Part shown: positions 1,030-23,711 of the stretch, one piece after another
Position numbering within the stretch: the stretch's first letter is position 1
Layout: every line of letters begins with the position of its first letter
Assembly: GCA_036275915.1 (NCBI GenBank)
Contig: DASUCV010000020.1
Coordinates: forward strand, 1 to 64,000
Length of the DNA: 64,000 bases
Reading direction: 5' to 3'
DNA from: Candidatus Polarisedimenticolaceae bacterium
Lineage (GTDB): Bacteria; Acidobacteriota; Polarisedimenticolia; Polarisedimenticolales; DASRJG01
Notes under the pieces: model-generated
The model's database searches: none
What the model was told of the DNA's origin: nothing
Seen by the model: the letters and a program-made list of their open reading frames with translations, nothing else
Position numbers and translations under genes: made by a program

Positions 1030-4000
1030 TCACGGGCTGCCGATCAATACAAACGCGCCCCAGAATTGTGGAGAATGGTAGTTTGCCGTCGCGCGCACTT
1101 TCCGCTTCGCCTCCCACAAAGCATCCGCGAAACCAGTCGAAGTTGTGGGCCGATCTCCTGTCGGAACACTATCGAAGAGCGCCGTAATGACTTGCCGTGC
1201 GGCGGAATCGTCCACCGCCCACAGGGTCGAGACAACCCGACGCGCTCCTGCGATCAGGAATCCCCGAGAAAGTGATACAGCGCCCTCCAGGTTGATCTCT
1301 TCACCGGTATGAGTGCCGCAGGCGGCGAGAACCACGAGCTCGGCAGGAATACGCAAGGAGTAAACCTCGTGCAGTTCGAGTAGACCATCTGCCTCTGAGG
1401 CGACCGTCCCTGCCGGTAGTTTCAATACCAACGCGGCCCGTAGTCCATCGGATCCCGTCGACCCGATCGCGTGGGTAGCGAAGTGAACGAGCCTGGCGCG
1501 ACCTATGTCGGCTCGCACCTCTTGCTCCGTTGCCGTATCGTCATGGAGTAGCACAAGCCGACATCCGGGCTGTCGCCTCTGGATCGCGGCGGCGATGCTC
1601 TCTTGCTCGGGAATCGAGTTGCTCAATGCGGGGAGTCGGAAGGCCTGTTCGAGCGTTCCGTCTCGTTCACCGTCGACCCCACGAGCACCATTGACATCAG
1701 TGGGCGGCCCTGGACTTGAACCGCCGACGTTAGCGATCCGATTCACGACGCCCGCGACGGAGAGAAGTTCCAAGTCGGTCGTCCCGTGCGTCTCTTTTCC
1801 GTAGAACGAGAACGAGATCGACGGTGCGATCGTGATCACCGGCCCGTCATCAAGCCAGTATTTCGTCGACTCCTCAGTCGAGTCGACGGTGACAACGAGT
1901 GCATCCATCGGAACTTGATTCAATTGCGCATCAGGGATAACCGTCACGTGTCCGGCCTTGTGGATACGCGCCCACACCGGCTCGGGAACAAGCGCCCGCC
2001 AAAGTGCGTGCAACCACTGGTCGTTTGGAAAACCGTTTCCCTCGCAGCTTGACGCCAGTCTCGCTCCTCGTGGAGACGGCACGTCGTACTTCGCGCGGAA
2101 CCGGCAATCAAAAAGTCGTCCTAGCGATTTCGACGTCAACGGCCCGGACGATACCCCCAGCAGCTTGGCGGTGGATTCGTCCAGATTCAGACTGAATGCT
2201 TGCACTTCAGCACCCTGGGCCGACACAACGAACACCCGGGACGCTTCGACTCCGATTTGGAAGTACAGGATGTCGTTCGCGAACGCCTTCATGGCTTGGC
2301 GCAATTCATCCGTATTCGAGGTCAGGTGATCGATGGAGGCCATGACTTCCCGATATCGCGGATCGACCCGCCGGATCTCCCCGTTCGCGCGTCGATATTC
2401 CGAAAGTGCGATGGCGACTGCGTGCGCCGCATCATCCGAATCGTGCTCAGCCTGCAAGTCGCCGGCTAGCGCTCGTTCCATCAAGCTGCGCTCGAACGCT
2501 TGCGCCTTGCGGAGTGTTGCCTCCGCGACTCGTCGACGGTCGACCAAGTCTTGAGCGACCCCTGTCGAGGGATCGCTCAGTTGCGTCTTAGAAAACGCGA
2601 CTTCCTCAACCAAAGTCCGTGCTCGTGTGCGCTCTGCCCACCTCAGAGCCTCATTCGGATGTCCGGCAGCGATCTGCCGCGTAACCATGGTGTCGAACCT
2701 GGGAGCGTACCGCGCGAGGAAGGTCGCGCGAGTGGTGTCCGCCGCGCTACTCTCCTGCCGCATCGACTCGACGGAGCCGAGCGCTGCGCTGAGCACAACC
2801 AAGGATTCCTCGCGCTCATGAGCGGCCCACAGGACGTCCGATTTCTCGAACTGTGCCTTCGCGGCCGCTTCGCGCCACTCGGAGTGAAGGTTCACCTTCG
2901 CAAGTGCGTCATCTATTGTTTTCAGCGCTTCTGGAAGCTGTCGGATTGCCAGCTGCGCTCGAGATACTTCGATCAAGCTTTCGGCGACGTCGACGCTCTT
3001 CGGCGCAATCGCCGTTCGAATCTCCAAGGCCCGCCGGAGCAACGGAAGCGCGTCCCGCGGCTGGCCCTCGTCGATGAGTACGGTCGCGAGATCGTGGAGT
3101 GCTCGAGCAGTCTCAGAATGCTCTTTCCCGAGTCCCGTTTCTCGTATGGAGAGGGCCTCGCGCAGCAGCGTCTCCGCCTCGACATACTGAGAGTCTTCGG
3201 CCAAGAAGATGGCGAGCTGCGCGAGATACACAGAGAGCTTCGGATCTGTGCTATCTGGAGCCACATACAATGAGCGGGCCTCTTCCGCACACGCTCGGTA
3301 TTTCGCTTCGGCGTCTGCCCGTCGCCCTTGGAATCGAGCCAGCTCGGCCAGGTTGAAGGTGGCGGTAAGGATGCCCTCTTGGTCCTTGAGAGCTTGGCGT
3401 TCCGAAAACGACTCAATCTCGTACCTCTCGGCGTCTGCATAGCTCCCTTCGTCACGAAACGTTCCCGCCACGGAATTGAGCAACCACGCGTGCACCGGCG
3501 TGTGCTTCGGTGCAATGGCCAAGCCCTTGTTGAACTCGGCCCGGGCGGGGACCGAACCATCCGTCAAACGAGTGAGCTCGCCCGACGTCAGATATCCAAC
3601 CGCCTTGTCGGTGGGACTCGCATCAGACGATTGGAGATATCGCTGCCGATCGGTGACGATTGGGCGAGCTTCATCGTAGCGGCCCATCGCCCCGAGGATC
3701 TGTGCGATTCCCTCGAGCGTCGCACCCATCGCTGCGTCACGCTCGGTCTCGGGCTGTAGTTTTCGGTGCTCCAACGAGCGCTGTCCATACTTGAGAGCTT
3801 CGTCGAAGCGATTCCAGTTGAAACAGATACTCGAGAGATTGTCGAGACTGTCTGCGACGGAGGCGTGGTCCAATGGGCGCAGCTTTTCCCATTCTTCTAG
3901 TCCATGCCTTAGCACCTCAAGAGTCGTCGCCCTGAACTCTGGTTTCTCCGAGTTGTAGAGAAGGAGTCCAAGGTGATCTATGAAACGAGCGATGGACGGC

Positions 4001-4509
4001 GCATCATCAGGAAAGCATCGGCGGGCGCTTGCCTCGGCATCCTGGAGCATCTGAAGGGCTGTCTCGTTCCCGTCCTTCAGTGCGGATCGGATGCGATCGG
4101 TGAGTTGCGCAGCCTCCCAGCACGCTTGATCGCGCGGCGAAGCTGCGTAGGCGCTAGTTGCACCCACCGCCCGTGAAGGTGTGTCGGGCCCATCTTTGAT
4201 CTCCAGCGTCCAGACGCCGGGAGGATCCGCGAGCCAGGTGAATGTCACCGACTTCGCGAGCCATTCATCGCCTCTCTCTACGTGTCGAATCGCACCGGTT
4301 GGGTCTGTGAGTGTGATCGTCGCCGAGCCGTCGATCGTCGTCGCAACCCGGGCAGCTTGCCCGGCTTGGAGGTCACATCGCGGGTCGGAGGTTCGCCCTC
4401 CTACTCTCGGGCTTCCGCATCCGACGCACGCCACGACGAGTACTAGTGAATGAGATAAGAATTTCAACTGCGAATCCCAGCCGCGGGAACCTGAAGCACC
4501 CACCGACAT
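1030..4509 (-). CDS. TPR-CHAT caspase-like protease, probable lipoprotein
   Basis: 1159 aa. The N-terminus has a hydrophobic stretch (LVLVVACVGC) with Cys residues placed like a lipobox, suggesting envelope anchoring. Residues roughly 150-600 are tetratricopeptide repeats, for example the segments around SVADSLDNLSSICFNW and ETARALHDLATVLIDEG. The C-terminal third is a CHAT domain: strand-His motif VHFATHA (His near residue 1012) and strand-Cys motif VVLAACGTHTGE (Cys near 1064), followed by GFLIAGARRVVSTLW. These are the His/Cys dyad motifs of clan CD proteases. TPR-CHAT proteins typically cleave a partner after sensing a signal through the TPRs. Divergent from the secreted protein at 4647 and near a sigma/anti-sigma pair and two other proteases. 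Substrate unknown. Confidence 0.9.
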   Translation of the reverse strand: MSVGASGSRGWDSQLKFLSHSLVLVVACVGCGSPRVGGRTSDPRCDLQAGQAARVATTIDGSATITLTDPTGAIRHVERGDEWLAKSVTFTWLADPPGVWTLEIKDGPDTPSRAVGATSAYAASPRDQACWEAAQLTDRIRSALKDGNETALQMLQDAEASARRCFPDDAPSIARFIDHLGLLLYNSEKPEFRATTLEVLRHGLEEWEKLRPLDHASVADSLDNLSSICFNWNRFDEALKYGQRSLEHRKLQPETERDAAMGATLEGIAQILGAMGRYDEARPIVTDRQRYLQSSDASPTDKAVGYLTSGELTRLTDGSVPARAEFNKGLAIAPKHTPVHAWLLNSVAGTFRDEGSYADAERYEIESFSERQALKDQEGILTATFNLAELARFQGRRADAEAKYRACAEEARSLYVAPDSTDPKLSVYLAQLAIFLAEDSQYVEAETLLREALSIRETGLGKEHSETARALHDLATVLIDEGQPRDALPLLRRALEIRTAIAPKSVDVAESLIEVSRAQLAIRQLPEALKTIDDALAKVNLHSEWREAAAKAQFEKSDVLWAAHEREESLVVLSAALGSVESMRQESSAADTTRATFLARYAPRFDTMVTRQIAAGHPNEALRWAERTRARTLVEEVAFSKTQLSDPSTGVAQDLVDRRRVAEATLRKAQAFERSLMERALAGDLQAEHDSDDAAHAVAIALSEYRRANGEIRRVDPRYREVMASIDHLTSNTDELRQAMKAFANDILYFQIGVEASRVFVVSAQGAEVQAFSLNLDESTAKLLGVSSGPLTSKSLGRLFDCRFRAKYDVPSPRGARLASSCEGNGFPNDQWLHALWRALVPEPVWARIHKAGHVTVIPDAQLNQVPMDALVVTVDSTEESTKYWLDDGPVITIAPSISFSFYGKETHGTTDLELLSVAGVVNRIANVGGSSPGPPTDVNGARGVDGERDGTLEQAFRLPALSNSIPEQESIAAAIQRRQPGCRLVLLHDDTATEQEVRADIGRARLVHFATHAIGSTGSDGLRAALVLKLPAGTVASEADGLLELHEVYSLRIPAELVVLAACGTHTGEEINLEGAVSLSRGFLIAGARRVVSTLWAVDDSAARQVITALFDSVPTGDRPTTSTGFADALWEAKRKVRATANYHSPQFWGAFVLIGSP

Positions 4510-4546
4510 GCCCGCTTCCAGTCCCGAACTCTGATGGTGACGGTCG

Positions 4547-4597
4547 TTGACGACTCGACTTGCTGAGAACTATGCGGTTGCCTGTCACCGATGTCAA
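4547..4597. promoter_or_regulatory. Overlapping divergent promoter candidates between the CHAT and secreted-protein genes
   Basis: Minus strand: TTGACA (4597-4592), 17-bp spacer, CATAGT (4574-4569), which would start the CHAT transcript about 53 nt before its ATG. Plus strand: TTGACG (4547-4552), 18-bp spacer, TATGCG (4571-4576), leading toward 4647. The -10 boxes overlap, so the two directions would compete. The plus-strand -10 is weak. Confidence 0.35.
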
Positions 4598-4646
4598 CGG
4601 TACTGTTGTTGCAGCTTACGCAATCCGCTACGACGTTGGGGGGTCT

Positions 4647-6407
4647 ATGCGACATCGAATGATTGGGGCGACCATCGTCTTATTCTTGGCGCCATTTGTC
4701 TTGACCGCGTTTGCGGCGCCTGTCACCAAAAAACTCGATCGGCTGTTCCCGGTTGCGTCATGCCCGTTTCCAAGGCCCGATTGCGCCGAAACGTCCTTGA
4801 TTTGTCCGGACTACTGCGCCACTAATCCCGCAACACCCCTTTGTACGGACGCGAACAGCAACGGCGCGTGCTGCGAGCAGCCGTATGGGGAGTCCTCACC
4901 GGAGCACTGCGGGCTCAATGTTAGTCATGAGACTTCCGACCTGCAATTCGGGGTGCCCGCTGTAGGGGGCAATTACGGCGGGCCTGTCGCGATTACAATC
5001 CGTCGCACCGGGGACACCCAGCCGAGCGCGATCCGCGAGATTTCTTATTTGGCATTTATCGCCCAATCTCCCTACCTTGACAATCAGCCGACCCAATCAA
5101 GACTCGACGACTATCTCGGCAATGGAAATTACTGCGCCGCGAGTGATTCGTCCTGCGACGACTGCAAGCGCGAGAGCCCGCAGGACTGCTATCAGGGCGA
5201 TGGTCGGCCGACGGTCTTCTTTCCGGTCCGTTCGATTACCAGCGGCGAATTTGGATTCGAAGAACCGTTCAATGTGGCCCCGGACAACTCGCGACCCGAA
5301 TGCTACCGATCTGATTCTGTCGGGAGACGACACGGGACGTGGGTGCTTGGCGGCGGTGCGTCAATCGCGATTGATGAATTCCCGAGTTACCCACTGCGCT
5401 TGGGTTCAAGTAGTGACAATACCGGTGCGACGGCAACGCTCGTTGTGCCATTTGTACCAAGCGGGTTGTATGAGCTCTACGGAATCTGGTTCAGCAGTAC
5501 GAACGGTCAGAATGCAGTCACGTTTGAAGTCGCGACCGGAGACGACGAGCGCGTTTTCGATGAGGACGGGGACGGAGTGCCCAATGAGTGCGACAACTGC
5601 CCTTCGGTCCCCAACGGAGACTGCGACGCGTCCACCGCGGCTTGCGATATCAACGGGGACGGGATACTCAGCGCCGACGAGATAAGCAAGGGGAACCAAG
5701 CCGACACCGACGGAGATGGGAGAGGAGACGCATGCCCGGATTCGACACCTCCTACCAGTTCGGCAAGCGTGACGCCGGATCCTAATGCCGCCGGTTGGAA
5801 TAACACCGATGCGGTGGTGACGATCACGGCGGTGGACGAAACCGGCGGCTCAGGAGTCGCCTCGATCTCCGTCGAGACCTCCGGTGCGCAGGTCGTCCCC
5901 CTGACGGTAACCCCCGGCGCAAGCGCGATGGTGACGACAAGCGCCGAGGGCACGACCAACGTCAAGTTCTGGGCCACCGACAATGCCGGCAACACTGAGG
6001 CACCGCAGACACTGCCGGTAATGGTGGACAAGTCGGCGCCTCAGGTTACGTGCTCCGTGAATCCATCGTTCCTCTGGCCGCCGAACCATCGACTCGTGGA
6101 CGTCGTTGCAAGCGTGTCGGTCATCGATGCGCTCTCCGGGCCGGACAATTTCGTGCTCGATTCGGTTCTCGGTGACGAACCTGACAAGTCAAAGAACGGA
6201 GTGGACATCGCCAATGATATTCAAGGCTTCGTACTGCACACCGGGGACACCACCGGCAAGTTGCGTGCGGAATGCCTCGGGACGGGCGATGGCAGGACAT
6301 ATAAGTTGATTTATCACGGTCTCGACCACGCGGGGAACAGCAGCCAGTGCGAGGCAATCGTCGTGGTCCCCCATGACCAGCGGCGGGGAGCTTCCGGAGT
6401 CCACTAG
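4647..6407 (+). CDS. Secreted calcium-repeat / Ig-like protein
   Basis: 586 aa from the ATG at 4647, chosen because it follows a G-rich Shine-Dalgarno-like run and begins a clear signal peptide (MRHRMIGATIVLFLAPFVLT, cleavage near AFA). The mature N-terminus is Cys-rich (about residues 30-90). Residues about 305-365 hold thrombospondin type 3 / dockerin-like Ca-binding motifs (DEDGDGVPNECDNC, DINGDGILSADE, DTDGDGRGDAC). These are followed by an Ig-like module (about 365-460, with DETGGSG and DNAGNTE) and a C-terminal beta-rich domain ending GASGVH. It is probably an extracellular or surface protein. It is divergent from the CHAT gene and its end overlaps or abuts the sigma-like gene. No catalytic motif was seen. 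Confidence 0.75.
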   Translation: MRHRMIGATIVLFLAPFVLTAFAAPVTKKLDRLFPVASCPFPRPDCAETSLICPDYCATNPATPLCTDANSNGACCEQPYGESSPEHCGLNVSHETSDLQFGVPAVGGNYGGPVAITIRRTGDTQPSAIREISYLAFIAQSPYLDNQPTQSRLDDYLGNGNYCAASDSSCDDCKRESPQDCYQGDGRPTVFFPVRSITSGEFGFEEPFNVAPDNSRPECYRSDSVGRRHGTWVLGGGASIAIDEFPSYPLRLGSSSDNTGATATLVVPFVPSGLYELYGIWFSSTNGQNAVTFEVATGDDERVFDEDGDGVPNECDNCPSVPNGDCDASTAACDINGDGILSADEISKGNQADTDGDGRGDACPDSTPPTSSASVTPDPNAAGWNNTDAVVTITAVDETGGSGVASISVETSGAQVVPLTVTPGASAMVTTSAEGTTNVKFWATDNAGNTEAPQTLPVMVDKSAPQVTCSVNPSFLWPPNHRLVDVVASVSVIDALSGPDNFVLDSVLGDEPDKSKNGVDIANDIQGFVLHTGDTTGKLRAECLGTGDGRTYKLIYHGLDHAGNSSQCEAIVVVPHDQRRGASGVH

Positions 6408-7395
6408 AGGGGCGACATTGTCTCGGGAATCTGACTCGCGAATAGACCCAACTAAGTCGTCGATCCATGACTACGCGCTGTTACGGCTGATCGAGGGGCA
6501 GGACGATGCACTGCCTGCGCACTTTCCGGGGCGCAATCGGATCGTCGACAACTTTCGGCGGATCCAGGACACGATCAAGACCGTCGTCGAACGAACCGTC
6601 GAACGAAATCGCTACACGCGTTTCGTAGCAAGTCGGCTCGCGGTTCACGCCCCAGATTTTGTTGCGGAACATCCCGCCGAGTTCGAGAACGAGATCGAAG
6701 GAAAGCTGAGTGAACACGTCGAGCGCATAGGAGGTCAGGAGCGGAACAAACAAGTACTACGAAATTTTGCTCTCTGGTACCGACTCGCGAGCGTCATGGG
6801 TAGCGCGCAGAATCGGGCAATTCCAGGAGCTCTCGCCGTTGTGACGAAGGACTTTGAGGAGGTCTCTCGCTTCCTCAATCCGGAACGTCCGGAGTTTCGT
6901 CGCTTGTTGGGGGAACGTCAAGGCGTTGACCCAAGTAGCGTTGCGGAGCGTGTCGAAGACAATCTGTTGGCGCACTGGCAGGCCTATGAGGGCACGGCAC
7001 CACTCGGAGCTTACATACGCACGATCGTCACAAGACGGAAGCAGGAACTGCTGCGAGGTCTTGGAGAAGGCGTCCTCGATCACGACAGCATCGAAGCTGT
7101 ATTCGAATTGCCTGCGGAGGGAGAGGACCCCGTCGAGCTCCTCGATCGGCCATCCGCTCGTGAGATGGCGCTTCGGGTGAAGGCCGTGGTCTCCGCCGTC
7201 GAGAAGTTCGACGAGGTGGACAAGTTGATCTTCTTCGCGCGGATGGAAGACCCACCGCTGCCCTACAAGTTGATCCTGGACCGTTTAGGAACGATTCCAG
7301 CGAACAACATGAAGAGGGAGAGCGCTGTTCGTGCTCGTCACACCCGACTGGTCGCAGAGCTTCGACAGGCTTACGAGTCCACGCTGAGACGCTAG
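6373..7395 (+). CDS. Divergent ECF-like sigma factor
   Basis: Up to 340 aa. The ATG at 6373 overlaps the upstream gene by 35 bp; a TTG at 6418, just behind AGAGGGG, is an equally plausible start. Residues about 190-235 resemble sigma-70 region 2 (NLLAHWQAYEG, then PLGAYIRTIVTRRKQELLRG). Residues about 275-335 resemble region 4 (FDEVDKLIFFARM, then a helix-turn-helix around LILDRLGTIPANNMKRESAV). The roughly 190 N-terminal residues are not recognised. The role would be recruiting RNA polymerase to alternative promoters. It is tail-to-tail (4-bp overlap) with a zinc-finger anti-sigma-like gene, which supports the call. Sequence similarity to classical ECFs is low, so the assignment rests on pattern and context. 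Confidence 0.62.
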   Translation: MTSGGELPESTRGATLSRESDSRIDPTKSSIHDYALLRLIEGQDDALPAHFPGRNRIVDNFRRIQDTIKTVVERTVERNRYTRFVASRLAVHAPDFVAEHPAEFENEIEGKLSEHVERIGGQERNKQVLRNFALWYRLASVMGSAQNRAIPGALAVVTKDFEEVSRFLNPERPEFRRLLGERQGVDPSSVAERVEDNLLAHWQAYEGTAPLGAYIRTIVTRRKQELLRGLGEGVLDHDSIEAVFELPAEGEDPVELLDRPSAREMALRVKAVVSAVEKFDEVDKLIFFARMEDPPLPYKLILDRLGTIPANNMKRESAVRARHTRLVAELRQAYESTLRR

Positions 7396-8288
7396 TCGTC
7401 GGAGGTTCGCGGAGCCGACGGGCCGATCTGAATTTTAAGGCTGTCGATTGCGGTCCCATCCGAAAGTTTGACATCGAGCGCGACGATTACGCCTTTCGCA
7501 ACATCACTGGCCGAGATCGTTCCGCGAATCGGTGCGATCTTGACCAATCCGAACTCCAGTGGCGGCCCGAAGAGTGTGTTGCCATCGATCACTGCTCCTG
7601 TATCCCTTAGTACAGCTTCGACGTGCGCGCCGGGGGTTGCGAGTGAGGTCAGGAATTGCAACGCGCGGTCACTGCCACCGAGGCCGATCGATATCGTCGT
7701 GACGCGCCTGCCGTGGAGTTCGACTTGTGCCCAACCTGCCGGCTCCGTTCCGCCCTTGCCCGAATCGCCGCTGACGGCATTCACAGGCATTAGGACTGAC
7801 GAAGACGACGAAGCGCCGAATCGGTACATCGTAGGAATCAGAATTGCGATCAAGAGCAAGTAGGCTGCTGCTGTCAGCCAGTTTCGCCGGATTGCCAGCA
7901 CGTCGAACACAACCCAACTCGACTTGGACGAGGACGCAGGTATGACATCGACCGCAGGGGCCTCGGCGATCCAGGACCGAAGCTGACTAAGGAGCGACGA
8001 ACACTCGGTACAAGTGTCCGCATGTAACTTCCATGCGTCCAAGCCCTCCGGCGCGAATGATCCCCAATCGCCCGCTAGGGCAACGAGGACTTCGGGTCGA
8101 GGATGGGCGGTCACCGCATTCGACGGGCGAGTTCGGAGTTCGTGCTTCACCAGGTCGACACGTCGGGCGAATCGGGCGCAGTTGGCGCAGTTCTCGACAT
8201 GCGTCGCGGTCTCCCGTGATTGCAGATCCTCGTCGTCATCCGATTGGAGGAGCAGCCGAGCCTGAACTCTCGTACAAGCGATCGGCAA
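7392..8288 (-). CDS. Transmembrane anti-sigma-like protein with two zinc-finger motifs
   Basis: 298 aa. The start is TTG at 8288, fixed by an AAGGAGG Shine-Dalgarno about 5 nt upstream. There are two HxxxCxxC zinc-binding motifs of the zf-HC2 anti-sigma type, H30-C34-C37 and H89-C93-C96. A single membrane helix spans about 137-155 (NWLTAAAYLLLIAILIPTMY), and a roughly 140-residue C-terminal domain is probably outside the cytoplasm. Zf-HC2 proteins hold ECF sigma factors inactive until proteolysed or conformationally changed. Two fingers in one protein is unusual. The gene is last in a minus-strand run behind the trypsin and caspase genes and is convergent with the sigma-like gene. Confidence 0.75.
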   Translation of the reverse strand: MPIACTRVQARLLLQSDDDEDLQSRETATHVENCANCARFARRVDLVKHELRTRPSNAVTAHPRPEVLVALAGDWGSFAPEGLDAWKLHADTCTECSSLLSQLRSWIAEAPAVDVIPASSSKSSWVVFDVLAIRRNWLTAAAYLLLIAILIPTMYRFGASSSSSVLMPVNAVSGDSGKGGTEPAGWAQVELHGRRVTTISIGLGGSDRALQFLTSLATPGAHVEAVLRDTGAVIDGNTLFGPPLEFGLVKIAPIRGTISASDVAKGVIVALDVKLSDGTAIDSLKIQIGPSAPRTSDD

Positions 8289-8387
8289 GTTCGCCTCCTT
8301 TCGCGAGACTCGGCTCGACCGAGCCGCCGAGCCCCCTCAAACTAGGGACGCGACGTCGGAACGGTCGCTGCGAGAGGATCCCTGAGA

Positions 8388-10649
8388 TTATTCAACTTTG
8401 AACGATAGTCTCCGGGCTACCCACTCGCCCAGCTGAGATTCGTGGGCTCCCGGAGGCCGTGAAAACCGTCGGACAGCCTCGGGCTCGCCCCGACGAGGTA
8501 ATTCGCAGGCTTTCTTGAAGCTCTCTTGCCCGGCCTCCAGCGCGCGCACCTCTTCCATGAGGCTCAGGAGTCGCATGGGGTTGGTGTCCGCCACAACCAT
8601 GATCGAGTCCGTGCCTCCGGTACGGGAAACCAGGAACGGAATCGACATCGGCGCGGACCATCGGCTAGGGATCCGAACCGTCGCGCCGTCGCTTGACTCC
8701 AGCTCGTGAGTCGCCGAAGGATCCCATAGCTCTATTGACGGGCCCCCGCGGGCAGATGCGATATCCAACACATGCACGATGGCGACGTAGCTTCCGCGTT
8801 GTGCGTCGATCTGCAGATTCAAGTCAGCACAGTCGTCTGTCTGTCCAGGCTTGCACCGGACTCCAGTAATGACTCTCCTGCGCGAATCCAAGAGTCGGGC
8901 GTCGAGATTGAACGAGCCATCACCCCGGAGATCGAGCAGTTGCCGAACTTCCGCGCCGTGCAGCTCGGAGTAGGAAGCGATTGCAATCTTCTGCACGACG
9001 TCGCCGATTAGCTCCGGCTTCAAGTCGGAAGCGTTTGGCGGAATCGCGGAATCGAGGAGCTTCCGGCTAGTCGTTCCTCCTACAACTCCGAAGCGAAGTG
9101 AGCGCGATGATGAAGCGTCGACACTGAGTCGAAAATACCGCTCGGGATGAGGACCGAACTTCGCCATCTCATCGTCAGCGGGTCGGCCGTCCCTGAATAC
9201 GATCGCTGGGTGATCTGACACAAGCCGGTTGACGAGCTGCACCGCCATGTTCGAGGGGAATCCGTCCACGTAGACGATCGGACGATCATACTCGAAGGGG
9301 ATATTGCAGCGGACCGCAACTACGTCGGTCCTGTCAGCAATAGGATCTGTCGCGATACCGGTCACCTTCGTCGAGTCAGGCCATCGATATCGAACCGACT
9401 GCTGGTCACGGACGCCGACCAGTGCGAGGCGGGAGGAAAAGGCATCCCGCATTCGAGCCCGCCGTACGAGCACGTATGAGTCGAGCGGACTCACAGGCAC
9501 CGACGCTGGGACCTCTATCGTCCACTGGTTTCCAATCTCGAGATGGGCGGCCATCGCAAGTCGTGGATCGACATCACGATCCGTGAAAAGGAACGGCTCG
9601 TTTTCACGCCCCGCTTGCGCGCTGAACCCGGGTTGCATCTTCCGAAAAGAGCGCTCTGCGACCTCCGATCGAACACGCTCGAAAAGGAGCGAGATCGGGG
9701 CGCCTTGATCCAATCGCTCTGCCTCGCTCCAGAGCACGTAAGAAAATAATCCGCGCGGCACGGAGTCGAACAACTGTTCGTAGGCGGTCGATCCACCCTC
9801 ATCCGTACCGCCTCGATGGACGTTCGACACGGCCGACAGGACGACGTAGCGGGCATCGGAAGGCAGGATTCGCCTGCCCGGCGAGCTCGCGTCGTGTCCC
9901 GCGTGGTCCATCGCTTTCTTTTCCGCCAGCACGCGTGCCCGGTCCGGAGTGTCTCGATTGAAAGTCATGTCCGCATGGCTCGTGTAGAGTTGCGTACGCG
10001 CATCGAGTTCCGGAACGACTCGCTCCTTGAGATCGACGCCACGGCCGCGAGGAAGCGATGCCGAGTGGCACGCATCGAAGATCAACAGGACATTCCGAGC
10101 GTCCGGACTCAGTCGATCGAACCACAAGAACAGCTCGTCATCCACGATGTCCGGGATGTTCTCTGTTCGTGCGTCGTACGGCAGAAGACTTGCGTCGTTG
10201 CCACCGCCCTCATCGCCGTTAATATCTGGAGCCTCCCCGCCATGGCCGCTCCAGAAAACGACAAGCGTATCCTCCCGACGAGTCGCTTCGACGGAAGCGA
10301 GGATTGCATCACGAATGCGCTTTCGCGTTGGGAGGTGGTCTTCGGAACCGAGCGGATCGCCGCTTACAAGCACCGTGATGTCATCAAAGTGGTACTTCGA
10401 TCGCAATAAGGTTTCGAGCGACCTGACATCGTGTGGCGGGCCCGCGAGAGGCTCGATGTCTCTACTCAGATATGAGCCGACCCCGATCAGGACGGCCCGC
10501 CGTATCCCCTTGTGAAATGCTGGTGTCGGCTCCTTCGGCGCGGGCCGTGATGCGCTCGCCACGATGATGGCGAAGCCGACTAAGACGATCCCCAATGCGG
10601 ATCGCATGCTCCAGACCACCCCACGATTCATTTCGCGTTTGAGAGCCAA
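8388..10649 (-). CDS. Exported caspase-family (C14) protease
   Basis: 753 aa. An N-terminal hydrophobic segment (about residues 13-33, SMRSALGIVLVGFAIIVASA) suggests export or membrane anchoring. The peptidase C14 domain spans about 48-340, with the catalytic His in FWSGHGG (H136) and Cys in LIFDACHSAS (C194). DDIT and DGRP-containing segments are typical of bacterial metacaspase-like proteins. The C-terminal 400 residues are beta-rich and unassigned. The start overlaps the end of the trypsin-like gene by 22 bp, indicating one operon, and the anti-sigma-like gene follows after 99 bp. Family members cleave after Arg/Lys or Asp; the target here is unknown. Confidence 0.87.
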   Translation of the reverse strand: MALKREMNRGVVWSMRSALGIVLVGFAIIVASASRPAPKEPTPAFHKGIRRAVLIGVGSYLSRDIEPLAGPPHDVRSLETLLRSKYHFDDITVLVSGDPLGSEDHLPTRKRIRDAILASVEATRREDTLVVFWSGHGGEAPDINGDEGGGNDASLLPYDARTENIPDIVDDELFLWFDRLSPDARNVLLIFDACHSASLPRGRGVDLKERVVPELDARTQLYTSHADMTFNRDTPDRARVLAEKKAMDHAGHDASSPGRRILPSDARYVVLSAVSNVHRGGTDEGGSTAYEQLFDSVPRGLFSYVLWSEAERLDQGAPISLLFERVRSEVAERSFRKMQPGFSAQAGRENEPFLFTDRDVDPRLAMAAHLEIGNQWTIEVPASVPVSPLDSYVLVRRARMRDAFSSRLALVGVRDQQSVRYRWPDSTKVTGIATDPIADRTDVVAVRCNIPFEYDRPIVYVDGFPSNMAVQLVNRLVSDHPAIVFRDGRPADDEMAKFGPHPERYFRLSVDASSSRSLRFGVVGGTTSRKLLDSAIPPNASDLKPELIGDVVQKIAIASYSELHGAEVRQLLDLRGDGSFNLDARLLDSRRRVITGVRCKPGQTDDCADLNLQIDAQRGSYVAIVHVLDIASARGGPSIELWDPSATHELESSDGATVRIPSRWSAPMSIPFLVSRTGGTDSIMVVADTNPMRLLSLMEEVRALEAGQESFKKACELPRRGEPEAVRRFSRPPGAHESQLGEWVARRLSFKVE

Positions 10650-11914
10650 TAGTCGATCGTTCCATCGCCATCCACGTCGAGGCCACGCTTGTCGATTACT
10701 CCGTCCTCGTCCTCGTCGAAGACGTAGAAATTGGGTGGCCCTGAGCCAGCGAGGTTTATCGCGAGGCCATCGGCGACGCCGTTGTGATTGGAGTCAAGAA
10801 TCCAAAAGTCGACCTCATCGTCGGAGTCGACGTCAACCGCGTACGCATCGTTGATACCGTCATTATTGATGTCTACTTCTTGGAACCGAGAGTCCGGCGG
10901 CAGTTCCTTGCCAAGGAGCTTGGAGGCGTTCTTCGGTAGCGCTGGAGACTTCGGTGCTACATATGTCGGCGGATGTTTGACGATCTCGTCGATCTCGCTC
11001 ACCGCAATTGCCATGTTGAGTCCTTGAACCACAGCCTGTTTCCCTCCGGACTCGGCGAACGCGACGAGCCCAATCACCTGCCCATCGCCGTTGAAGAGTG
11101 GGCCGCCTGAATTGCCCGAGCTGATAGGTGTCTGAGTCTGGATCACGCTTGCCTTCAGGTCGACCGACGGCGATTGGAAGTATCCGGACACCTCGAACTC
11201 TGGCCGGATCTGGCTCACAATTCCTTGCGAGAGACTCCATGGGTAACCGAGCGGATGTCCGATCGCAAAGACGTCGTCACCTACTCGCACTGCCTTGAGG
11301 CTTCCGAGGGGCACCGGCTGCACGTTGAGCGCAGTCGCCGGCACCCTCAGCAATGCCAAGTCCGCAGAGGGCTTGGCTGCGATGACGTGCGCCACGAATA
11401 TGTCTGCGTGTTCAGCGGGTTGCATCTCGCTTGAGCGGGTCAGAATGCATGCTGTGGGCTGGTTTTCCACCACGTGATAATTCGTGGCGATGAGCCCTGA
11501 CTTGTCGATGACAACGCCGGCTCCCTCACCGTCAGGCGTCATGATGCGCACCACGCTGTCTGCACGCTTCTTGTAGACGCTGACCGCACCAGGCGACTTC
11601 CCAACGCTCGGGTTCTTCGATCCGCCTTGTTGACCTCCTTGCGACAGGGCCTCCGCGCAACGGCTGTAAGTGATTGCTGAGCGCTCATCCAGGTTCTGGA
11701 CGAGACGTGGGTAGCTGCTTCTTAGTGTCGGCGAAATTCCATTGATAGGGTGCCAAGTCGGCTTCTGTCCGCCGCGGCTCGCCTTGACGGTCGCAACAAG
11801 CGCAGCCGGTACGTTTGTGACCCCATTCCCATTCGAAGGCGTGGCGGCGGGAGATGAAGTGGTCGCTCTGACGAGCAACAGGCATGCGACAAGAGTGGCG
11901 ACTTTAGGTTCCAT
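10628..11914 (-). CDS. Exported S1C trypsin-like (HtrA/DegP-like) protease with C-terminal Ca-repeat tail
   Basis: 428 aa. A Shine-Dalgarno (GGAGGT) precedes the ATG and the N-terminus is a short signal peptide (LVACLLLVRATTSS). The chymotrypsin-fold domain (about 110-310) has all three catalytic residues: H147 in ATNYHVV, D185 in SADLALL and S269 in SSGNSGGP. There is no PDZ domain, unlike classical DegP. Residues about 345-428 carry Asp-rich EF-hand/TSP3-like motifs (DINNDGINDAY, DSDDEVDF, DEDEDGVIDKRG, DVDGDGTIDYW), suggesting Ca-dependent stability or localisation. It is the first gene of the run trypsin - caspase - anti-sigma-like. Confidence 0.88.
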   Translation of the reverse strand: MEPKVATLVACLLLVRATTSSPAATPSNGNGVTNVPAALVATVKASRGGQKPTWHPINGISPTLRSSYPRLVQNLDERSAITYSRCAEALSQGGQQGGSKNPSVGKSPGAVSVYKKRADSVVRIMTPDGEGAGVVIDKSGLIATNYHVVENQPTACILTRSSEMQPAEHADIFVAHVIAAKPSADLALLRVPATALNVQPVPLGSLKAVRVGDDVFAIGHPLGYPWSLSQGIVSQIRPEFEVSGYFQSPSVDLKASVIQTQTPISSGNSGGPLFNGDGQVIGLVAFAESGGKQAVVQGLNMAIAVSEIDEIVKHPPTYVAPKSPALPKNASKLLGKELPPDSRFQEVDINNDGINDAYAVDVDSDDEVDFWILDSNHNGVADGLAINLAGSGPPNFYVFDEDEDGVIDKRGLDVDGDGTIDYWLSNAK

Positions 11915-19852: not shown

Positions 19853-21784
19853 ATGCGCCTTTACTCCGGGCTCTCCACCGACTTCATACGTGACGCCGCG
19901 CACAATCGAATCGCCGCGAAGCTGAAGGACGCATACTTCCGGGAATTCCGTCACAACCCGCCTCCGTCCGAGGTCAACTCCTGGCAGAACTCTCTTCGGG
20001 CAATGTCACAGGTCGTCGACCTTGCGGGTTTGCATGACCACGGCGTCCTCCTCGAGTACCAGTTGCCCATGACGAGCAAGCGATTGGACTGCATGGTCTG
20101 CGGCCAGAATGGTGAGCGCCGCGATCAAGCGGTCATCGTTGAGCTCAAGCAGTGGCAGGCCTGCGGAGACGCCGGTGTCGAAAACCTCGTTACCGCGTTT
20201 GTGGGTGGGCGCGAGCGTGACGTACTGCATCCGGCAGCCCAAGTAAATCAATACGAGCGCTACCTCGAGGACAGTCATACCGCGTTCTATGAGGGGACAG
20301 CGCCGGTAGGCCTGGCGTCGTGCGCCTACCTGCACAACTACTACGCTACCGATGGTGACACGCTGTTTACCGATCGATTCGCGTCGATTCTGTCGCGCTC
20401 GCCGGTATTCACGGCCGACGACGTCGATCCGCTGCAGGAGTTCCTTCGAGTCCGCCTCTCCTCCGGCCACGGTGAGCCGGTGCTGCGACGGGTCGAACAG
20501 AGCAAGTACCGCCCAAGCAAGAAGCTTCTGGAGCATGTCGGAAAGCTCGTCAAGGGGCATCCGACCTACGTCTTGATCGATGAGCAGTTGGTGGCGTACG
20601 AACGTGTGCTGGCCACCGCGCGTGCTGGGTTCGACGCTCGAAAGAAAGAGGTCATCATCATCCGGGGCGGCCCCGGCACGGGAAAGTCGGTAATAGCGAT
20701 GAACCTCCTCGGAGACCTTTCAGCGGCGGGATTGAACGCTCACTACGCCACCGGGTCGAAGGCGTTTACCGAAACACTTCGCAAGGTGATCGGTAGTCGC
20801 GGCAGTGAGCAGTTCAAGTATTTCAACAGTTACGCTAACGCCGATGTGAACGCAATCGACGTACTAATCTGCGACGAAGCGCACCGCGTTCGGGAGACGA
20901 GCAACAGCCGTTACACGAAGAAGACCGAGCGCTCGACGAAGCCACAAGTGCGCGAGCTGTTCGACGCCGCTAAGGTCAGCGTGTTCTTCGTAGATGACAA
21001 ACAGAGCGTGAGGCCCGGCGAAATCGGCACGACCGATTACTTGCGAAAACAGGCGTCCGACTGCGGATGCGAAGTTCGCGAGTACACACTGGAAGCGCAG
21101 TTCCGTTGTGCCGGGTCGGATGCTTTCGTGAACTGGATCAACAATACGCTTGGAATCGAGCGGACCGCGAACGTCATCTGGGAGGGAGATGAACGGTTCG
21201 ACTTTCGCCTCTTCGAGTCTCCGGGATCCCTCGACGAAGAGATCCGCCGAAAAGCAGCAACGGGAGTAACGGCGCGTTTGACCGCTGGGTTTTGCTGGCC
21301 ATGGTCCACTCCCAACACCGACGGTACACTCGTAGAAGATGTTGTGATCGGAAATTTCCGGCGGCCGTGGAATGCACGACCGGATGCTGGCAAGCTCGCC
21401 CGCGGGATTCCGAACGCAAACTTGTGGGCTTACGATTCGGGGGGGATCGATCAAGTCGGCTGCGTGTACACGGCGCAGGGCTTTGAGTTCGACTTCGTCG
21501 GTGTGATCGTTGGGAACGATCTACGCTACGACCCCGACACTGGCGATTGGATCGCCGATCGCACCCAGTCGCACGACCGAAAGGTCAAAGCAGGCAAGCA
21601 TCGATTCGCGGAATTCATTAAGAACACCTACCGGGTATTGCTGTCACGTGGGCTGCGCGGATGCTACGTCCACTTCATGGACAAGGAAACCGAACGATTC
21701 GTGCGGAGTCGAGTGGAATGGAAGAGTGGACCTGCTCTCAACGTCGCCGCCGAGTCAAAGAATAGCTCAGACCCGGGGACTTGA
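19853..21784 (+). CDS. PD-(D/E)XK-like nuclease / DUF2075 helicase fusion, copy A
   Basis: 643 aa. The N-terminal 120 residues fit a PD-(D/E)XK nuclease core: E69 in LEYQLP, D79 in KRLDCMV and the E97-L-K99 motif in VIVELKQW. A P-loop NTPase of the DUF2075 / Schlafen group 3-like superfamily 1 type follows, with Walker A GGPGTGKS (272-279), Walker B LICDEAH (338-344), then a Q/R-containing LEAQFRCAGSD and a C-terminal YRVLLSRGLRG motif. It would be a DNA- or RNA-directed helicase-nuclease. The next gene is a paralogue starting 4 bp after this stop. Base composition is visibly lower in GC than the S41 gene upstream, suggesting acquisition. A role in defence is inferred. Confidence 0.82.
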   Translation: MRLYSGLSTDFIRDAAHNRIAAKLKDAYFREFRHNPPPSEVNSWQNSLRAMSQVVDLAGLHDHGVLLEYQLPMTSKRLDCMVCGQNGERRDQAVIVELKQWQACGDAGVENLVTAFVGGRERDVLHPAAQVNQYERYLEDSHTAFYEGTAPVGLASCAYLHNYYATDGDTLFTDRFASILSRSPVFTADDVDPLQEFLRVRLSSGHGEPVLRRVEQSKYRPSKKLLEHVGKLVKGHPTYVLIDEQLVAYERVLATARAGFDARKKEVIIIRGGPGTGKSVIAMNLLGDLSAAGLNAHYATGSKAFTETLRKVIGSRGSEQFKYFNSYANADVNAIDVLICDEAHRVRETSNSRYTKKTERSTKPQVRELFDAAKVSVFFVDDKQSVRPGEIGTTDYLRKQASDCGCEVREYTLEAQFRCAGSDAFVNWINNTLGIERTANVIWEGDERFDFRLFESPGSLDEEIRRKAATGVTARLTAGFCWPWSTPNTDGTLVEDVVIGNFRRPWNARPDAGKLARGIPNANLWAYDSGGIDQVGCVYTAQGFEFDFVGVIVGNDLRYDPDTGDWIADRTQSHDRKVKAGKHRFAEFIKNTYRVLLSRGLRGCYVHFMDKETERFVRSRVEWKSGPALNVAAESKNSSDPGT

Positions 21785-21788
21785 TTCG

Positions 21789-23711
21789 ATGGCATCCGAT
21801 GACTCACTTTCACCACATGGGTGGCATTCTAATTTCCCGGAATTCGAGAAAGCCTCCCCACGTGTCATCAGAGCGCGGCTGAGCGAATTCATCATCGATG
21901 CCAACCCCCAGCAGGTGGGCGCTTGGGACGATTCCATCCCAAAGCTTCAGACCGAAGTCCGCGAGGTGATGACCGATGAGCCCGATGCGGACCTCTATAC
22001 CGCCATCCTGGAGTACCAGTTGCCGTTGGAGTCTCGCCGGGCAGATGTCATCCTGCTCGTTCGGGGCGCGGTCGTAGTTCTTGAGTTGAAAGGCAAGACG
22101 AGCGCTAGTCAAGCGGATATTGATCAAGCGGCGGCGTACTCACGAGATCTCAGCAATTATCACCGCGCGTGCTCGGGACGCGCTGTTCACGCTGTTGTCG
22201 TACCCACGGCAGCACGCGGCGAACTCGGCGTTCGTTCAGGCGTGCACATTGTCGGACCTGATGCTCTTGACAGGCTCGTCCGCAGACTCCAGCCACCGTG
22301 GCCGCGCGACATTGTGGAGGCTCAGGCATTTCTGGGCTATGACGCATATCGGCCGCTTCCGACGCTCGTGCGAGCGGCGCGAGAACTGTTTGCCTCCGGC
22401 GCACTTCGTCGCATCGAGCGAGCAAGCGCGAACACTGCGCCGGCCATTGACGAGGTGACTCGGATCATCCGCGAGGCTGCGGCGACACGCAGCAGACGCC
22501 TTGTCTTGGTAACTGGCGTACCGGGTTCCGGGAAAACGCTCGTGGGACTGCGAATTGTCCATGCGCATTTCCTCGATGATCTCGCGATCGCGCGCGCGGG
22601 TGAACGACCCTCGGCACCGGCGGTATTCCTTTCCGGAAACGGGCCACTGGTCGAGGTATTGCAATACGAGCTTCGCGGCGCCGGTGGCGGTGGGAAAACA
22701 TTCGTGCGAGGCGTGAAGGACTACGTGAAGCAGTACTCTCGTGGAACGAGCAGGATTCCACCAGAACACGTCCTTGTTTTTGACGAAGCCCAACGAGCTT
22801 GGGATCGAGAGCGCGTAGAGGAAAAGCATGAGCAGGGAGGCGCGGCCGGCAGGTCCGAGCCAGAGCATTTCATTGAGTTCGCCTCACGTATTCCGGATTG
22901 GTGTGTTGTTGTCGGGCTCATTGGAAGCGGTCAGGAAATCAATGTGGGTGAGGAAGGCGGATTGATTCAGTGGAGACAGGCTATCGAAGGTGCGCCAAAC
23001 CCGTGCGAATGGCAGGTTCACGGCCCCGGCGACGCATTGAACGACTTTGGTGGCTCAGCCATTCGCAGTGAGACGAACTCCGGACTCCGGCTTAATGTTG
23101 GAGTTCGCTATCACCTCGCCAAAGACGTCGACGCGCTAGTCGAGTGTGTCCTTGCGGGCGATTCCGCTGGTGCAAACGCGTTGGCGCTGAGGCTTGACGG
23201 CACTTACAGCCCAAGAATTACCCGGAACTTGAGTATCGCGCGAAAGTACCTCCGAGATCGATATGCGAACGATTCCGAAGCGCGATTCGGACTTGTTGCG
23301 TCGGCTCGCGACAAGGATCTCGTCGGATTCGGTATCCCTAATGATTTCGCGTCGACAAGAATCCGTTACGGTCCTTGGTACTCGGATGGCGATGACGGTC
23401 CGTATTCTTGCCGTCACTTTCGTGAGCTCGTTACGGAGTTCGGAGCGCAGGGATTGGAGCTCGACGCCACATTACTTGCTTGGGGAACAGACCTCATTCG
23501 CGTCGACGGAGAGTGGTCGACGAAGAGAGCACGAGGTTACAAACGGGGCGTGCACGTCCGCAACCCGCATCAGCTTCGTCTGAACGCCTACCGAGTCCTT
23601 CTCACTCGCGGGCGTGACGGTACGGTCATTTTTGTCCCACCTCTTCTCGAGTTGGACGACACCGCGGATTTCCTCTCCGCGTGCGGATTCGTCTCGCTCG
23701 AAAATCGGTAA
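21789..23711 (+). CDS. PD-(D/E)XK-like nuclease / DUF2075 helicase fusion, copy B
   Basis: 640 aa from the ATG at 21789, 4 bp after copy A. It has the same architecture: nuclease core with E75 in LEYQLP, D86 in RRADVIL and E99-L-K101 in VVLELKGK; Walker A GVPGSGKT (243-250); Walker B VLVFDEAQR; arginine motif near NVGVRYHL; and C-terminal YRVLLTRGRDG. The EYQLPxxSxR segment is almost identical between A and B while the rest is highly diverged, so this is an old duplication kept as a pair rather than a recent one. A heterodimeric or two-strand function is possible (inference). Lower GC, as for copy A. Confidence 0.82.
   Translation: MASDDSLSPHGWHSNFPEFEKASPRVIRARLSEFIIDANPQQVGAWDDSIPKLQTEVREVMTDEPDADLYTAILEYQLPLESRRADVILLVRGAVVVLELKGKTSASQADIDQAAAYSRDLSNYHRACSGRAVHAVVVPTAARGELGVRSGVHIVGPDALDRLVRRLQPPWPRDIVEAQAFLGYDAYRPLPTLVRAARELFASGALRRIERASANTAPAIDEVTRIIREAAATRSRRLVLVTGVPGSGKTLVGLRIVHAHFLDDLAIARAGERPSAPAVFLSGNGPLVEVLQYELRGAGGGGKTFVRGVKDYVKQYSRGTSRIPPEHVLVFDEAQRAWDRERVEEKHEQGGAAGRSEPEHFIEFASRIPDWCVVVGLIGSGQEINVGEEGGLIQWRQAIEGAPNPCEWQVHGPGDALNDFGGSAIRSETNSGLRLNVGVRYHLAKDVDALVECVLAGDSAGANALALRLDGTYSPRITRNLSIARKYLRDRYANDSEARFGLVASARDKDLVGFGIPNDFASTRIRYGPWYSDGDDGPYSCRHFRELVTEFGAQGLELDATLLAWGTDLIRVDGEWSTKRARGYKRGVHVRNPHQLRLNAYRVLLTRGRDGTVIFVPPLLELDDTADFLSACGFVSLENR

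Follow-up and report, generated by a model that had tools for sequence, protein, structure and literature searches.

Nhi and AbiO are single polypeptides in which a nuclease is combined with a superfamily 1 (SF1) helicase, and Nhi is activated by the single-stranded DNA-binding protein of the phage, as stated in PMC10732053. PF09848 has served as a marker of abortive infection (Abi) in another study (PMC10121019), so the field is already acquainted with this domain. PF09848 (DUF2075) helicases also occur in the Schlafen group 3 (SLFN-g3) proteins SLFN11 and SLFN14, and the phage-defence candidate PDC-S41 of the PADLOC collection consists mostly of stand-alone genes. In Dna2 and AddAB, a PD-(D/E)XK nuclease with the Q-x3-Y motif, the mark of RecB-like PD-(D/E)XK members, is coupled to an SF1 motor. 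Here we analysed two adjacent genes, gene 1 (P0001) and gene 2 (P0002), located 4 bp apart on the same (+) strand of a 64,000-nucleotide stretch of an acidobacterial contig (DASUCV010000020.1, positions 1 to 64,000), which is referred to below as the window. Each combines a PD-(D/E)XK nuclease with an SLFN-g3/DUF2075 helicase, and an original prediction made from the letters alone had proposed that the two were maintained as a two-subunit defence system.

The genes are real and were correctly described, and they are ordinary as a pair. In the reading that we prefer, with a probability of roughly 0.7, genes 1 and 2 are separate, horizontally mobile, single-polypeptide anti-phage or anti-plasmid nuclease-helicases, similar in mode to Nhi and AbiO, that were juxtaposed, together with an HNH endonuclease gene, in a small low-GC defence island, and they are not co-adapted subunits. 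If this reading is right, the pair should not enter catalogues as a new system of two genes, and PDC-S41 gains, with gene 2, a divergent member whose active sites are intact. The cassette of a MazG-like gene and a nuclease-helicase found among the relatives of gene 1 is the better lead.

Domain composition and family assignment

PF09848 covered almost its entire model in both proteins (303 bits in gene 1 and 187 bits in gene 2; curated cut-off 24). In an alignment of 16 gene 1 sequences, the nuclease residues E68, D79, E97-x-K99 and Q130-x3-Y134 as well as the motor motifs G272-G-x-G-T-G-K-S, D341-E-x-H and Q542-G-x-E were invariant. The same held, among 15 gene 2 sequences, for E75, D86, E99-x-K101 and Q113-x3-Y117 in the nuclease and for P245-G-x-G-K-T, D332-E-x-Q-R and Q554-G-L-E in the motor. 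The domain composition proposed for each gene was confirmed by these matches and residues, together with the structural realignment of gene 1 described below. BLASTP aligned the two proteins in short pieces only, the main two at 27% and 35% identity, and their family profiles were colinear at 20% identity across 534 columns (E 5.4e-23); the two genes are distant, colinear paralogues, as strongly diverged as had been noted. A dN/dS ratio of 0.158 between gene 1 and its nearest relative (NG86, 446 codons) indicated purifying selection.

An AlphaFold2 model of gene 1 built from 16 sequences reached a predicted local distance difference test score (pLDDT) of 85.6, and the N-domain predicted alone reached 88.5. 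Foldseek searches with the whole model gave DSH9, SLFN11, RecD2 and Dna2 as top entries, and upon realignment of the motor UvrD was best (Z 21.9, 309 residues, root-mean-square deviation (rmsd) 3.8), followed among others by FBH1 and SLFN11 (Z 20.0). Solved structures searched by sequence yielded Schlafen motors only (E ~0.003-0.005), plus the P-loop of a zeta toxin. For the N-domain of gene 1, Foldseek found nothing significant, the top entry being Cap4 at E 0.061, and realignment to the Foldseek candidates gave Can2 as the best match, with a Z of 7.3 over 136 residues (rmsd 4.2), Z values below 8 being such as can reflect a common arrangement. Rows 1-32 of this realignment, which we take to be nucleases of the restriction-endonuclease fold, presumably include the CRISPR ancillary nuclease Can2 at the top, Shedu SduA, Cap4, FokI and EndoMS, and row 33 is presumably the first unrelated entry. 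Because the realignment coincides with the invariant motif, we accept the restriction-endonuclease fold as established for the modelled N-domain of gene 1 despite the Z below 8; for the N-domain of gene 2 the same fold is predicted from its profile match to gene 1.

These domains set the two proteins apart from the better known enzymes. They share the PF09848 helicase family with the group 3 Schlafens and differ from them in that a PD-(D/E)XK domain takes the place of the Schlafen N-terminal RNase core. Dna2 and AddAB both appeared in the structural lists; however, genes 1 and 2 belong to another helicase family, no iron-sulphur cluster cysteines were seen in them, and they have no conserved second subunit.

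Gene 2 matched the PADLOC model of PDC-S41 (PDLC05014) at E 1.6e-124 and 414.7 bits, residues 12-626 aligning with positions 6-633 of 657. It has the same architecture and is by this match a member over its full length, albeit a divergent one: it and its nearest tested relative (L060, 393 bits) scored ~390-415 bits, versus 790 bits for L071 (loci and genomes bear our own numbers, with L and G, respectively). Gene 1 reached 59.9 bits with the same model, in three short pieces, and since only such short pieces match, at about 60 bits, it is not a member of PDC-S41. Its similarity to AbiO (1.2e-10) and Nhi (5.4e-10) was confined to the helicase region (positions 176-305 of 468 in the AbiO model and 180-306 of 470 in that of Nhi) and left the nuclease half unmatched; as the motor half alone matched, and not the full length, gene 1 was not assigned to either family. 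No full-length model for gene 1 was present in the PADLOC release searched. Gene 2 by itself already has an entry among the phage-defence candidates, as PDC-S41. The literature searched, with subscription papers and preprints outside its scope, contained no report on DUF2075 together with MazG or with phage and defense, none on PDC-S41 and, among papers mentioning DUF2075, none on this subject by title or abstract; with that scope, these negatives prove no novelty.

One locus related to gene 2 had an unusual form. In L061 (8176-10356), the first 168 residues of a 726-aa frame were 54% identical to the nuclease domain of gene 2, the C-terminal part was a trypsin-like protease (Trypsin_2, 2.8e-19), and a match to the gene 2 motor lay in another frame, which may represent decay or a domain swap.

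Distribution of the two genes and of the pair

No gene 2 homologue was found beside gene 1 at any of the 29 loci outside the window that carried a substantial gene 1, and no gene 1 beside gene 2 at any of 21 gene 2 loci. Left out of the 29 were fragments (L020, L021 and L022), the remnants L055 and L057 of G064, a relative of 22% identity in G047 (L056), a broken frame in G550 (L080/L083) and the duplicates L058 and L078. Locus L010 offers just 226 bp upstream of the gene, L050 and L051 end at the contig edge on the 3' side, and the locus open reading frames (ORFs) were picked with a greedy script that favours the longest frame and not with a gene caller. Gene 1 was present at 19 loci of the genome_contigs set, from Desulfobacterota-type bacteria, Rokubacteria, Bacillus, Bacteroidota, Actinobacteria, Acidobacteria and several Archaea; none of these loci held a gene 2 relative, and 18 of the 19 genomes had none anywhere, the remaining one carrying it on a different contig. 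Of 297 genomes sampled from the phylum of the window, 12 carried gene 1 relatives and 21 carried gene 2 relatives, and the two families met only in the window's own genome and in G223, where they lie ~8.9 kb apart on one contig. A search for PF09848, scoring at most six candidates per genome, was positive in 29 of 294 genomes from the same phylum and in 35 of 296 from a Bacteroidota-side sample, and among these 64 genomes the window's alone had two intact adjacent PF09848 genes. The relatives of gene 1 in Bacteria and Archaea showed 46-66% identity (57-66% for the first eleven, which were near full length), and 21 of 72,556 plasmid records contained gene 1 over at least 80% of the query, a spread that is in keeping with transfer. 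Gene 2 was absent from the viral contigs searched, and gene 1 was found there at one locus, which itself had a MazG-like gene upstream.

We weighed two further views of the pair. A lineage-specific two-subunit defence system, with the two proteins forming a heterodimer as in AddAB or RecBCD, would account for the 4-bp gap, the common strand and architecture and the active-site residues kept intact in both genes, and a second tandem of DUF2075 genes does exist on a Hymenobacter plasmid. However, the pair is missing from all 29 other gene 1 loci, all 21 gene 2 loci and the 63 other PF09848-bearing genomes, each family is found alone, and the Hymenobacter tandem consists of two gene 1-type proteins; we consider such a system unlikely. 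Alternatively, both genes might encode enzymes of DNA repair or plasmid maintenance, of the Dna2 or UvrD kind, with no part in defence, which would agree with repair helicases being the best structural matches of the motor (UvrD at the top) and with Dna2 in the Foldseek list. Their patchy presence in the 297 genomes, the similarity of 58-66% across domains of life, the low GC content, the defence-like neighbours and the listing of PDC-S41 argue against this possibility, which we regard as very improbable.

A number of observations nevertheless weigh against treating genes 1 and 2 as independent. With a gap of 4 bp, the two genes are likely to be co-transcribed and coupled in translation, and a shared function can exist in one lineage without being conserved elsewhere. 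In the genome of the nearest gene 1 relative (G137, 75%), no gene 2 match was found, and the contig stops before the expected site of gene 2. DUF2075 tandems are not unique to the window, because the Hymenobacter plasmid holds one (L117, 1904-5890): its two genes, 240 bp apart and 34% identical, both have gene 1 and not gene 2 as the closer relative, and they adjoin a methyltransferase gene and restriction-modification genes. Tandems do arise, and the combination of gene 1 with gene 2 was seen once. Lastly, the figures for the neighbourhoods, which speak for a defence-like setting of both genes, are inflated by overlapping models: at E 1e-15, 122 PADLOC models were matched by 100 gene 1 neighbours, 9 by 64 gene 2 neighbours and 5 by 100 control genes, these being counts of models and not of neighbours, and the best 25 of the 122 were all methyltransferase models with four members each. 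The sets comprised 100 of 142 listed gene 1 neighbours (omitting, among others, the MazG genes and loci L019, L067, L068 and L069), 64 of 71 gene 2 neighbours, which matched AbiEi, AbiU, MzaE and two candidate families, and all 100 control genes, taken from 12 loci in the same kinds of genome.

Taken as independent nuclease-helicases, the two proteins may be pictured as follows. The SF1 motor, similar to UvrD and the Schlafens, would load where replicating foreign DNA, the presumed substrate, exposes ends, gaps or forks, travel with ATP in a direction that is likewise presumptive, and feed the DNA to the fused Mg-dependent PD-(D/E)XK nuclease of the RecB-like Q-x3-Y type, so that the foreign DNA would be degraded or the infected cell arrested. 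Each protein would act alone at replication or recombination intermediates, as proposed for Nhi, and a role in defence is presumed for both.

The survey called for originally thus gave a divided answer: the two-gene order is not conserved, homologues occurring otherwise than as this pair, and yet conservation does extend to the nuclease residues, and the neighbourhoods look rich in defence genes.

MazG-like partner and S24 tail among gene 1 relatives

A MazG-like gene (~110 aa) adjoined gene 1 at 21 of the 29 other gene 1 loci (among them L004, with MazG at 7661-7999, L005, the Bacillus locus L008, L015 and L118 on a Priestia plasmid) and at none of the 21 gene 2 loci (Fisher p 6.5e-8). In 17 of the 21 cases it was placed directly upstream on the same strand; three copies were downstream on the same strand, one of them frameshifted (L014), and one was downstream on the other strand (L009). 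Both neighbours checked matched the MazG-like family PF12643 (E 1e-15 and 2.6e-13), and the E-x-x-E-L and E-x-x-D core was kept, with few departures, in 20 aligned sequences. In a Priestia plasmid record, the same neighbour is annotated as a nucleotide pyrophosphohydrolase and is preceded by a gene with a McrB N-terminal domain. Gene 1 of the window belongs to the nuclease-helicase family of this MazG/DUF2075 cassette and has no MazG-like neighbour: nine MazG queries detected no remnant in the window at E < 1, and its genome contained no match to PF12643.

A single loss of MazG did not fit the tree of 30 gene 1 sequences (21 with MazG and 9 without, the window included), on which seven label changes were needed, at least four of them forced by supported branches. 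Since 134 of 500 shuffles gave a number as low, the presence of MazG appears scattered; the tree itself is weak, as 13 of its 27 inner branches are open and a pair of long branches meets in it.

A C-terminal S24 tail of the LexA/UmuD type was carried by five gene 1 relatives (L004, 8001-10457; L005, 2617-5073; L046, L047 and L053) and was absent from gene 1 of the window. Of two tails scanned with PF00717, one matched just below and one above the cut-off, and all five had an invariant A-A-G, the Ser of G-[ED]-S-M and the Lys of T-[VI]-K. The same A-A-G, Ser and Lys features are present in LexA. The tail could be a RecA-responsive switch on the nuclease-helicase.

In most relatives, the pairing of gene 1 with a MazG-like pyrophosphohydrolase might lower or clean the deoxynucleoside triphosphate (dNTP) pool, the S24 tail where present may respond to RecA, and gene 1 of the window would have lost, or never had, its MazG partner. 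We put forward, tentatively and with odds clearly below even, that gene 1 derives, without MazG, from a defence cassette spread across domains of life, composed of a MazG-like protein and a PD-(D/E)XK/SLFN-g3 protein, in some cases with a self-cleaving S24 tail that would switch the enzyme upon formation of RecA filaments, the role of MazG in the window having perhaps been taken over by the second nuclease-helicase or being dispensable. If true, this would link the depletion of dNTPs and the degradation of DNA to an SOS signal. If the preferred reading is right, the gene 1 family could also tell whether the hydrolysis of nucleotide pools and the sensing of SOS are built into immunity by nuclease-helicases.

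Two further features were observed at such loci. Upstream of MazG, four of them encode a TPR protein whose C-terminal region is conserved (L004, 5706-7658; L005, 313-2262; L013, 3326-4186; L063, 2438-3631), a possible third component. In L109 (contig 155 of G064), gene 1 remnants with stops share an island with the HNH gene and with pieces of MazG-like genes at three sites, one of them close to full length, which we read as a decayed cassette.

HNH neighbour and composition of the island

The features of the locus are collected in Table 1. With GC contents of 0.589 and 0.588, genes 1 and 2 lie below the gene upstream (0.690), as had been pointed out; their third-position GC was 0.711 and 0.602, respectively, compared with 0.84-0.95 in five flanking genes (overall GC 0.68-0.70). 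The HNH gene has a GC content of 0.669 and therefore need not have arrived in the same event as genes 1 and 2. No convincing attachment repeats were found at the island, and no tRNA gene in the window. An addiction-module antitoxin-like ORF, in line with the toxin-antitoxin neighbour proposed earlier, is situated within the same low-GC stretch and has no demonstrated tie to gene 1 or gene 2.

Table 1. Positions of the two nuclease-helicase genes, their domains and neighbouring genes in the window
Feature	Position	Strand	Evidence
Gene 1 (P0001), PD-(D/E)XK nuclease and SLFN-g3/DUF2075 helicase	19853..21784	+	ORF, 643 aa; PF09848 4.3e-90
Gene 1 nuclease core, residues ~40-165	19970..20347	+	Alignment, n=16; N-domain model and structural realignment
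Gene 1 helicase, residues 265-610 (Walker A GGPGTGKS, DEAH, QGFE, YRVLL)	20645..21682	+	PF09848; UvrD/SLFN11 realignment
Gene 2 (P0002), PD-(D/E)XK nuclease and SLFN-g3 helicase (start at the in-frame ATG at 21789)	21789..23711	+	640 aa; PDC-S41 1.6e-124; PF09848 6.8e-55
Gene 2 nuclease core (predicted), residues ~46-140	21924..22208	+	Alignment, n=15; profile match to gene 1
Gene 2 helicase, residues 237-617 (Walker A GVPGSGKT, DEAQR, QGLE, YRVLLTR)	22497..23639	+	PF09848
Convergent HNH endonuclease (P0003), 315 aa	23743..24690	-	HNH_2 8.9e-13
Addiction-module antitoxin-like ORF, 89 aa	25723..25992	+	PF09720 8.6e-13; GC 0.615

The convergent neighbour P0003, which had been proposed to be a modified-base HNH nuclease, proved to be an HNH endonuclease. 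An assignment to the phosphorothioate-dependent McrA-type HNH proteins was rejected, as NF045808 gave 62.5 bits against a cut-off of 180 and matched the C-terminal HNH part only. Among 199 genomes of the phylum, 18 had relatives of P0003. Such relatives adjoin gene 1 relatives in L010, in L020 and in L048 of G223, where HNH, MazG and gene 1 follow one another on a single strand, and they adjoin a gene 2 relative in L034 of G045.

These cases, together with the window itself, would be expected if the functional unit were a nuclease-helicase of either family plus the convergent HNH enzyme, the latter acting on perhaps modified DNA and the former finishing the degradation. The HNH gene was also found in 5 of 20 gene 2 genomes versus 13 of 179 comparison genomes, a modest difference (Fisher p 0.022) between two samples that overlap in design. 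However, most HNH relatives are located elsewhere: among 12 HNH loci, only the window's own and L095 have gene 1 or gene 2 within ~1.5 kb. Of the 29 gene 1 genomes tested, 3 had the HNH gene (G223 being counted among the gene 2 genomes), and in 25 of 29, G223 aside, it was absent or, in G064, ~11 kb away. We read the recurrence of the HNH gene as shared residence in defence islands, which suffices to explain the association, and hold a joint unit to be improbable.

Elsewhere in the window, another stretch with a GC content of 0.60 (1030-11914) contains a CHAT-TPR protein, a caspase (Peptidase_C14) protein and a trypsin-like protease close together, and may be a caspase-type conflict cluster.

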